NCBI RefSeq assembly: GCF_004353525.1
Contig: NZ_CP085524.1
Coordinates: forward strand, 1,002,001-1,066,000
Source of the DNA: Zhaonella formicivorans
GTDB lineage: Bacteria; Bacillota; DUOV01; Zhaonellaceae
Length of the DNA stretch: 64,000 bases
Direction: 5' to 3'
The position numbers and the translations under genes were made by a program. Under the pieces are notes generated by a model. It made no database searches and was not told the DNA's origin. It saw nothing but the letters and a program-made list of their open reading frames with translations. This document shows positions 9,036-38,930 of the stretch, in pieces (the first letter of the stretch is position 1; each line of letters opens with the position of its first letter).

Positions 9036-9084
9036 AATAAGCTGCTTAACGCCTGTCCCTTAACGCGAAGGACATTGCGCAAAG

Positions 9085-9240
9085 TTATAGGCAGGTTTCC
9101 TGGCTACGGTTCATTCCTTCCTCCGCCTTCCCGGTTTAACCAGTGGCTATGGAGGCTTCTCCCCGTTACAGTGGCGCGACCGCTCAGGCTTTTCACCTGA
9201 TTCCCTTCTCCTGTAACTTCACCCATGAGGTTTTATATTA
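9085..9240 (-). promoter_or_regulatory. Adenosylcobalamin riboswitch (cobalamin element)
   Basis: Read on the minus strand the region shows the conserved cobalamin-aptamer blocks in order: GGGAATCAGGTG, then GCGGTCGCGCCACTGTAA (B12-box-like core), GCCACTGG, GGGAAGGC, and GCCAGGAAACCTGCC near 9104-9090. It lies between a sigma-A promoter and a terminator ahead of the cobU-cbi operon. Binding of adenosylcobalamin is expected to favour the terminator and shut off the pathway. Confidence 0.95.
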
Positions 9241-9290
9241 AAATTTTTAAAATTTTGTCAGCTGGACTGAGAATTAACTGATCAGTATCA

Positions 9291-14862: not shown

Positions 14863-16401
14863 CTATTTAGCATACTCAATCGCTCTGGTTTCCCGGATAA
14901 CCACCACTTTGATTTGACCGGGATACTCCAATTCCCGCTCGATGGTTTTCACTATATCCCTAACCAGGCGTACTGCACTTAAATCATCTACTTTATCAGG
15001 CTTAACCATAATGCGAATCTCACGCCCAGCCTGAATGGCATAGGATTTTTCCACACCTTCAAACGAATCTGCAATTTCCTCAAGCTTTTGCAATCGTTTA
15101 ATATAAGTTTCCAGAGTTTCACGCCTAGCTCCTGGGCGTGCAGCCGATACAGCATCAGCAGCTTGTACCAGCACCGCCTCGATGCTTTGGGGATCAACAT
15201 CCCCGTGGTGAGCAGCTATGGCATGAATAACCTCCGGTGACTCCTTATATTTTTTGGCCAATTCAACTCCAATCGTAACGTGCGGTCCTTCAACTTCATG
15301 ATCAACAGCTTTGCCTATATCGTGTAAAAGACCTGCCCGTTTTGCCAATTGGACATCTGCGCCTAATTCGGCTGCCATGGAAGCAGCTAAATGGGCTACC
15401 TCCACCGAATGCTTAAGCACATTTTGCCCGTAACTTGTTCTGTACTTCAACCGCCCCAACAACCTAACCAACTCGGGATGTAAGCCGTGGATGCCAGTCT
15501 CAAATGTAGCTTGCTCGCCTTCTTCTCTTATTTTTTGCTCAACTTCTTTTTGGGCTTTTTCAACCATCTCTTCAATCCGAGCCGGGTGAATACGCCCATC
15601 AGCAATGAGCTTTTCTAAAGCAATGCGCGCTACTTCCCGTCTTACCGGATCGAAACCGGACAGAATGACCGCTTCCGGAGTATCATCGATAATCAAATCT
15701 ATTCCGGTTAAAGTTTCCAAGGTGCGAATATTTCTGCCTTCACGACCGATAATTCTGCCCTTCATCTCATCATTGGGTAACGGTACCACAGAAACGGTTG
15801 TTTCTGCCACATGATCAGCAGCGCAGCGTTGAATTGCCAGAGTGATGATCTCTTTGGCTCTTTTTTCCCCTTCTTCCTTGGCCTGGGTCTCAATTTCTTT
15901 AATCAGCATGGCTGTTTCATGTTTAATTTCTTCTTCTACATTTGCTAAGAGGATTTCCCTGGCCTCCTCGGAAGTCAGTCCTGAAAGCCTTTCCAATTCA
16001 GCAACTTGTTGAGTGTAAATCTCGTTGACATTCGCTTTGAGCTTTTCTAATTCCTGTTCCTTTTTATGCAAACTTTCTTCCTTGCGTTCAATTGCTTCTG
16101 TTTTGCGGTCGAGAGATTCCTCCTTTTGGAGGAGCCGCCTTTCTATTCTTTGCAATTCGTTACGGCGTTCCCTATTTTCCCGCTCAACTTCATTACGCAA
16201 CTTATGAACCTCTTCTTTAGCCTCTAAAATCGCTTCTCTTTTCTTAGCTTCAGCCTCTTTTTCAGCCTCTTCCACTATTTTTTTAGCCGCTTCCTCGGCC
16301 GATGCGATTTTAGCCTCAGCTAAAGATTTACGAAGAAAATATCCACCAATGAATGCCCCTATGGCTAAAAGCAAGGTAATAAAATAATAGTTCCAGTAAA
16401 T
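14863..16401 (-). CDS. rny: Ribonuclease Y
   Basis: RNase Y is the membrane-anchored endoribonuclease that starts mRNA decay in Firmicutes. In order: an N-terminal transmembrane helix, a long charged coiled coil (about residues 35-160), a KH domain with [12 protein letters not shown], and an HD domain with [12 protein letters not shown], then the C-terminal family domain. The first ordinary start codon (TTG 16374) is 33 bases from the only ribosome-binding site and would cut off half the membrane helix. A perfect GGAGGTG is followed six bases later by an ATT at 16401 that gives [23 protein letters not shown]-type anchor and 512 residues, the usual length. I therefore infer an ATT start. Confidence 0.93.
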
Positions 16402-16448
16402 AGTCTCACCTCCATTCTTTGCAATCTACTAAAACATTTTGGAGCTCT

Positions 16449-16477
16449 AAAAAATAAAGCCGAGTAAGAAACTCGGC
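16449..16477 (-). terminator. Intrinsic terminator after the 6S-like RNA
   Basis: GCCGAGT pairs with ACTCGGC across a short loop, followed on the minus strand by TTTATTTTTT. It lies 3' of the structured RNA and 36 bases before the rny ribosome-binding site. Confidence 0.88.
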
Positions 16478-16684
16478 GTACATTAGAAACTAACATCCCC
16501 AGATGTGCGGTTTTAACAAACTTATGCCTGTAGAAGCATAAGCACTGTATTTAAAACGATTCATTGTTCTAACTGTAGTAGCCATAATGATTTGGCAGAT
16601 CACACAGTTGCTACCAAAGAACATTGCGAACCATCTATTTAAATACCATACATCTGGTGTCTAGTCCTAACGTAGTTTCTCCCG
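16478..16684 (-). ncRNA. ssrS: Probable 6S RNA
   Basis: A ~205-base untranslated transcript with its own consensus promoter and terminator between recX and rny. Its two ends pair in a long closing stem: TACGTTAG / CTAATGTA, GACTAG / TTAGTTT with G-U pairs, then CCAGATGT / ACATCTGG. Inside is a largely unpaired, A/U-rich bubble, a small hairpin on the 3' side (CTTATGC / GCATAAG), and an apical arm (TGTTCT / AGAACA, GTAGC / GCTAC). This layout is that of 6S RNA, which mimics an open promoter and binds sigma-A RNA polymerase. A cis-acting leader of rny is the alternative. The pairing was done by eye. Confidence 0.68.
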
Positions 16685-16689
16685 ATAGT

Positions 16690-16718
16690 ATTGTAATATT
16701 CTTAAAAAAAGATGTCAA
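16690..16718 (-). promoter_or_regulatory. Sigma-A promoter of the 6S-like RNA
   Basis: TTGACA (16718-16713) and TACAAT (16695-16690) with a 17-base spacer. A start near 16683 agrees with the 5' end of the closing stem. Confidence 0.85.
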
Positions 16719-16735
16719 GTTAATCTAAATGTTCG

Positions 16736-17245
16736 TTAATCTAAGTGTTCAAGATCGAGCTCTGGCAGCTCAGCCTCCTCAGTAACCCTACATATAGCTT
16801 GTCGGGCAAGTTCTCCGCTGAAGCCACGCCTTAAAAGCATCCGGTATAATTGGTATTTTTTCTTTTTATCCAAAGGCTGGGAACCATGCAGCTTTTTGGA
16901 CAGAAGTTCGGTAGCCAGATCAAGTTCTATTTCTGCCGGAAGAAGTTCCTCTAACTGTGTGTAAATAACCTCCTGATCCAAACCTTTTTGCTTTAGTTCC
17001 TGTTTTAGCCGGCATTTTCCCATGGGTTTCAACCGCGTACGGGTGGAAATCCATTGTCTTGCAAACTCTCGATCATTGAGATAATTTCTTTCCAGGCAGT
17101 ATTCTATCACCCAAGCCACGGTCTCCGCGGGATAACCTCTTGCCAGCATCTTAGTTTCCAGTTCTTTAACTGTACACGAACGATGGCCAAGAATTCGCAG
17201 TGCCACCCCGAGCGCTTTGCCGGCAGTTTTGCTTAATTCACTCAT
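16736..17245 (-). CDS. recX: Regulatory protein RecX
   Basis: 169 residues of the RecX family, which limits RecA filament extension. The three-helix repeats are visible (ALRILGHRSCTVKELETKM, the YCLERNYLNDREFARQW block, and KLHGSQPLDKKKKYQLYRMLLRRGF). It follows recA by 15 bases and shares its transcript. The ribosome-binding site is poor, so it may be translated weakly or by coupling. The acidic tail ends in ELPELDLEHLD. Confidence 0.93.
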   Translation of the reverse strand: MSELSKTAGKALGVALRILGHRSCTVKELETKMLARGYPAETVAWVIEYCLERNYLNDREFARQWISTRTRLKPMGKCRLKQELKQKGLDQEVIYTQLEELLPAEIELDLATELLSKKLHGSQPLDKKKKYQLYRMLLRRGFSGELARQAICRVTEEAELPELDLEHLD

Positions 17246-38739: not shown

Positions 38740-38930
38740 GATAGCGAGATAGTGCTCCACTTGAGGTCCAGGATTCCTCAAGTGACAGTCCTGCACCTCT
38801 TCGATGCAGGCCCAGCCCGCAAGCCTCGGGAAACATGCGAACTTCGGCGGAGGCCCCTTTCCTTTTCAATCATCTTCCCCTTTTCTTGAAAAGTACTCTT
38901 GACAGCTCCGCGCCTCTACCTCACCTCCGA
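38740..38930 (-). promoter_or_regulatory. Lysine riboswitch (L box)
   Basis: On the minus strand the element shows the L-box blocks: GAGGTAGAGGCGC at 38922-38910, AAGAGTA, GGAAAGGGG, CCGAAG, GGGCTGGGCC, CTGTCACTTGAGG and GTGGAGCACTATCTC at the 3' side. GAGGTAG (38922-38916) pairs with CTATCTC (38752-38746) as helix P1. Lysine binding would favour the terminator and repress dapB and genes co-transcribed with it. Confidence 0.95.

Follow-up and report, generated by a model that had tools for sequence, protein, structure and literature searches.

In many Bacillota, mRNA half-lives are set by RNase Y. How the enzyme itself is controlled has been worked out in detail for B. subtilis only, where control proceeds via self-cleavage. 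There, the enzyme autoregulates through the 164-nt 5' UTR of rny, a long leader driven by a sigma-A promoter, by cleaving within the UTR and the open reading frame; the start codon is AUG, and neither a terminator nor a conserved end-paired RNA is mentioned in the paper (PMC10303841). For rny of C. beijerinckii and C. acetobutylicum, conservation of both promoter and UTR length has been described (PMC9045289). Regarding substrates, RNase Y cuts preferentially behind a G where the RNA is A/U-rich and weakly structured (PMC4608709). Autoregulation of RNase E is among the literature cited in PMC10303841. The 5' UTR of E. coli rne (rne5) is likewise a structured leader of the gene for the main decay endonuclease and may be regarded as a functional analogue of the RNA described below, which matches it neither in sequence nor in structure. 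It is not known to be a terminator attenuator. Such attenuators and riboswitch leaders of Bacillota share with our locus the order of promoter, folded leader, intrinsic terminator and gene. The rny leader, in contrast, serves one dedicated gene, and its terminator hairpin is conserved in sequence.

The rny locus of Zhaonella formicivorans

The window analysed here comprises 64,000 nucleotides of the Z. formicivorans genome. Between recX (16736-17245) and rny, an RNA gene had been predicted from the sequence, with a near-consensus promoter, paired RNA ends, a terminator and no reading frame. These parts could be confirmed. All of them, and rny itself, lie on the minus strand:

16690-16718, minus strand: sigma-A promoter, TTGACA-17-TACAAT, 11 of 12 consensus positions; kept in the family relatives G001 and G002 and, at rny, in 28 genomes found by pattern search
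16672-16683, minus strand: conserved 5' overhang GGGAGAAACUAC, from the predicted transcription start G 16683; candidate antiterminator strand
16661-16674, minus strand: closing stem P1, 5' strand, pairing with 16493-16479 and overlapping the 5' overhang by 3 nt; covariation across 53 leaders
16645-16657, minus strand: P2, 5' strand, beginning ACCAGAUGU (CUACCA in many relatives), pairing with 16511-16499
16549-16644, minus strand: long arm of a three-way junction, starting in the AUAGAU region (predicted fold)
16516-16548, minus strand: side hairpin of the three-way junction (predicted fold), present in G002 too
16499-16511, minus strand: P2, 3' strand (predicted fold), with changes in group A7
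16479-16493, minus strand: closing stem P1, 3' strand (predicted fold and covariation)
16449-16477, minus strand: intrinsic terminator GCCGAGUUUCUUACUCGGC with U-run, conserved in sequence at rny
16402-16413, minus strand: Shine-Dalgarno sequence of rny, GGAGGUGA (16413-16406), with a 4-nt spacer
16399-16401, minus strand: probable AUU start codon of rny, 7 nt after GGAGG and in frame
14863-16401, minus strand: rny (RNase Y); listed by the ORF tool as 14863-16374, from TTG 16374

The -35 (16718-16713) and -10 (16695-16690) elements, 17 nt apart, form the sole promoter-like site detected in a scan of 15900-17100. The terminator consists of a G+C-rich hairpin of 7 bp (GCCGAGU-UUCUU-ACUCGGC, 16477-16459) and TTTATTTTTT, which runs to 16449; the Shine-Dalgarno sequence begins at 16413. 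According to the ORF listing, no reading frame of at least 60 amino acids passes through the leader. By eye, a minus-strand frame of 44 codons was noticed inside it, which lacks a ribosome site and is not conserved in G002.

The predicted fold of the leader RNA had an energy of -75.0 kcal/mol, compared with -51.0 +- 4.0 in dinucleotide shuffles (z -6.07, 0 of 200), and was much weaker for the plus strand (z -2.3). Fourteen base pairs join the two ends. Inside, the rod with a bubble and an apical arm that had been envisaged gave way to a three-way junction, and the relative G002, folded independently, showed the same architecture with long arm and side hairpin.

Searches with Rfam 15 (4227 families, including rne5) revealed no match to the element at the gathering threshold and only chance-level ones at E<=10. 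For 20 homologous loci, a sub-threshold match to SorX (E 0.32, inside the terminator) was the only result. Also detected in the window, both on the minus strand, were a lysine riboswitch (38742-38926, 120.9 bits) and a cobalamin riboswitch (9073-9241, 96.6 bits). Elsewhere in the genome, the 6S RNA model RF00013 identified two genes above threshold (110.4 and 90.5 bits):

C1:673771-673951: 6S RNA gene (RF00013), following an apparent aspS gene (L011) at its 3' end
C1:1163830-1164010: 6S RNA gene (RF00013)

Occurrence of the leader

Blast searches detected the element at the recX-rny position in both other sampled genera of the family (G001 and G002), whose Rny proteins are 88-89% identical to the one encoded here. 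A covariance model built from the single sequence reached G002 (E 9e-7 per genome) and nothing further in 299 genomes, so that sequence searches alone would have suggested a family-specific RNA. A scan of named genomes with RecX yielded two loci, neither with a usable rny leader. Since Blast and the covariance model stayed within the family, the DNA upstream of rny was collected from 100 genomes, all of the same phylum; these came from a ranking by similarity of their Rny, which biases the sample towards closer relatives.

Most of these regions contain a promoter, a leader of 40-260 nt and a terminator just before rny. The 5' end of the leader, GGGAGAAA(C/A)U, is kept across the phylum. The body varies greatly in length, and from family to family its interior shows little sequence conservation, whereas promoter, terminator and rny remain associated. 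Some lineages, among them G022 (L010), L047 and L067, have only the promoter and the conserved terminator (about 40-60 nt), the folded body being absent. The terminator is thus the constant part, which suggests that the folded body has been lost or gained around it.

The terminator was evaluated in 104 rny-upstream loci, including three family members and G022; a ribosome site could be located in 102. The conserved form, CCGAGUUUC-N-CUCGG followed by a U-run and counted as a CCGAG..CTCGG hairpin at most 160 nt upstream of the ribosome site, is present in 62 of the 102 (shuffle mean 0.5), and a recognised terminator of any kind in 75 (shuffle mean 4.4). The conserved hairpin ends at a median distance of 43 nt from the ribosome site. 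Only three of the 62 gaps between them contain even a weak promoter-like string, which agrees with the original prediction that rny lacks a promoter of its own. About one quarter of the sampled loci miss the terminator pattern; several of these show other hairpin and U-run strings by eye. On a genomic scale, the strict hairpin CCGAGTTTC-N0-5-CTCGG occurred nine times in 14 genomes, eight of them at rny; a looser pattern has a background of about one match per genome. In one genome, G053 (C2), the palindrome-like sequence CCGAGTTTTAAACTCGG was found at no fewer than eight places, possibly as a repeat element or binding site.

An independent view of the linkage was obtained without reference to rny. 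The pattern TTGACA-N17-TANAAT-N5-8-GGGAGAAA, which covers leaders with the canonical 5' end only, was searched in 398 genomes and gave 28 matches in 28 genomes, one each, compared with one control match. All 28 are directly followed by an rny-like reading frame, and none was found elsewhere. No other result argues as strongly for an RNA that is part of rny and functions in cis.

Covariation of the closing stem

MAFFT alignments across families were too poor for an RNAalifold consensus. Covariation was therefore assessed by re-pairing leader ends between genomes, using 53 leaders after removal of duplicates and comparing body nucleotides 10-55 with the 42 nt that immediately precede the terminator. 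Pairing of own ends averaged -23.83 kcal/mol, versus -14.67 +- 0.54 when partners were permuted (0 of 20,000), and in 42 of the 53 leaders the own partner ranked among the best five. Two controls with shifted windows were flat. Covariation in the closing stem, which had been put forward as a check on the predicted RNA, is thus strong. Within families, compensatory changes are few but consistent; in group A7, for example, P2 shows C-G to U-A exchanges in the within-group alignment.

Possible pairing of the 5' end with the terminator

AGAAACU(AGG), the sequence conserved at the 5' end, complements the 5' arm and loop of the terminator, (CCG)AGUUUCU, and in the predicted fold P1 brings both next to each other. 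The terminator arm finds its best complement in the 5' end in 22 of 39 leaders, compared with 6 (maximum 11) for shuffled arms. Own combinations of 5' end and terminator paired at -6.71 versus -6.01 for permuted ones (2 of 20,000), a difference uncorrected for kinship and obtained with two motifs that are both conserved. Leaders with GAAAC always have a terminator with GUUUC (25/0 versus 7/21; association 4e-9, also uncorrected for kinship). A fold model of the nascent transcript gave 6.5 expected pairs versus 4.6 with shuffled arms, a modest gain, shuffled arms pairing as well. Several lineages, L053 and L069 among them, break the complementarity. These data are suggestive only, and an antiterminator formed by the 5' end and the terminator arm is treated here as a hypothesis.

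The start codon of rny

An AUU, AUC or AUA is the only start-like in-frame codon 4-11 nt after GGAGG in 75 of 108 scored rny loci (L021-L148 and the window), and rny appears to start at such a non-canonical codon there; database annotations probably place the start too far downstream. At eight or more of these loci, no AUG, GUG or UUG follows within the roughly 50-60 codons read downstream, and many have an in-frame stop two codons upstream of the start. A tryptophan two or three residues after AUU is common to Z. formicivorans, G001 and G002. Among 25 genes of the window with GGAGG near the 5' end, three have AUU-type codons only, and on inspection rny was the only one of the three without a proper canonical start. 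In S. aureus reporters, AUU-type starts yielded about 10-30% of AUG expression (PMC13009471).

Proposed function and alternative explanations

We consider it likely, with a probability of about 0.72, that the element is a cis-acting attenuator leader of rny. By sequence, this reading is based on the promoter, the fold and its covariation, the conserved terminator in front of rny, the linkage to this one gene, and gaps that mostly leave no room for a second promoter. Because the terminator stands between promoter and gene, rny transcripts from the leader promoter must pass it, and the layout supports the earlier proposal that read-through supplies rny mRNA.

Transcription would start around position 16683 and produce a folded, end-paired RNA of about 210 nt with the intrinsic terminator directly after it. 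Most transcripts would stop there, giving a leader RNA of about 225-235 nt, and rny mRNA would be made only by RNA polymerase reading through, so that the leader probably limits the amount of RNase Y made. Termination is presumably regulated: the overhang AGAAACU, kept near the terminator by P1, could pair with the emerging arm AGUUUCU and thereby allow read-through. Since the B. subtilis enzyme regulates the rny mRNA via the 5' UTR (PMC10303841), the likeliest signal is RNase Y activity itself, by cleavage or binding of the leader, and the outcome would be homeostasis as in that organism. The recurring stretch AUAUAGAU of the leaders resembles the cleavage preference of the enzyme (PMC4608709). 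A weak AUU start codon would further limit translation of rny.

It is unlikely that the element is a free-standing small RNA, acting in trans or binding a protein, with rny as a mere neighbour fed by terminator leak. It has the complete anatomy of a gene, a stable end-paired fold and a strong terminator, and the leader, once terminated, would be expected to accumulate and might play another role; however, the exclusive location of the position-blind matches at rny, the great variation of a body whose promoter, terminator and rny stay joined, and the lineages L047 and G022, with almost no body left, argue for a function in cis. We also think it improbable that an attenuating leader responds to a signal other than RNase Y, as a metabolite riboswitch or through another protein. 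A structured leader with a terminator is the usual anatomy of such elements, and the conserved internal motifs CUACCA and AUAUAGAU could form a binding site. Metabolite riboswitches, however, are usually shared by several genes of one pathway, unlike this leader with its single gene, and the poorly conserved interior and the absence of an Rfam match also speak against this class.

A still smaller chance is given to GGGAGAAA at the 5' end being a polypurine or Shine-Dalgarno-like mRNA stabiliser, with fold and terminator protecting the RNA ends and read-through not regulated. In B. subtilis, 5' ends of the GGGAG type are known to act as stabilisers, according to a reference cited in PMC10303841, and P1 would tuck the 5' end beside the terminator, but a terminator conserved before rny throughout the phylum is left unexplained. 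The identity given in the original prediction, 6S RNA, or a 6S-like RNA polymerase decoy, is very improbable: the element resembles 6S RNA as an end-paired RNA of about 200 nt with its own sigma-A promoter and terminator, but RF00013, which finds both true 6S genes of this genome, does not match it even at E<=10, its predicted three-way junction differs from the single long hairpin with a large central bubble, and a conserved terminator and a phylum-wide tie to rny fit a cis leader and are not 6S traits.

Implications for RNase Y

The rny leader is absent from Rfam and occurs across many families of the phylum; neither such an RNA nor an AUU start for rny was described in the journal papers searched, most of them freely readable. 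It is possible, though less likely than not, that it represents a phylum-wide RNA class for rny in which an end-paired leader keeping its 5' end at a sequence-conserved terminator as a built-in antiterminator, RNase Y sensing and a conserved AUU start are all combined. A conserved terminator leader at rny in many families would constitute a second control of RNase Y, at the level of transcription. The apparent AUU start would add RNase Y to the genes with poor start codons, such as infC, E. coli pcnB, and S. aureus cvfC1 and ccpN. If the combined reading holds, both the termination of transcription and the choice of start codon would restrain the main mRNA-decay enzyme of these bacteria.
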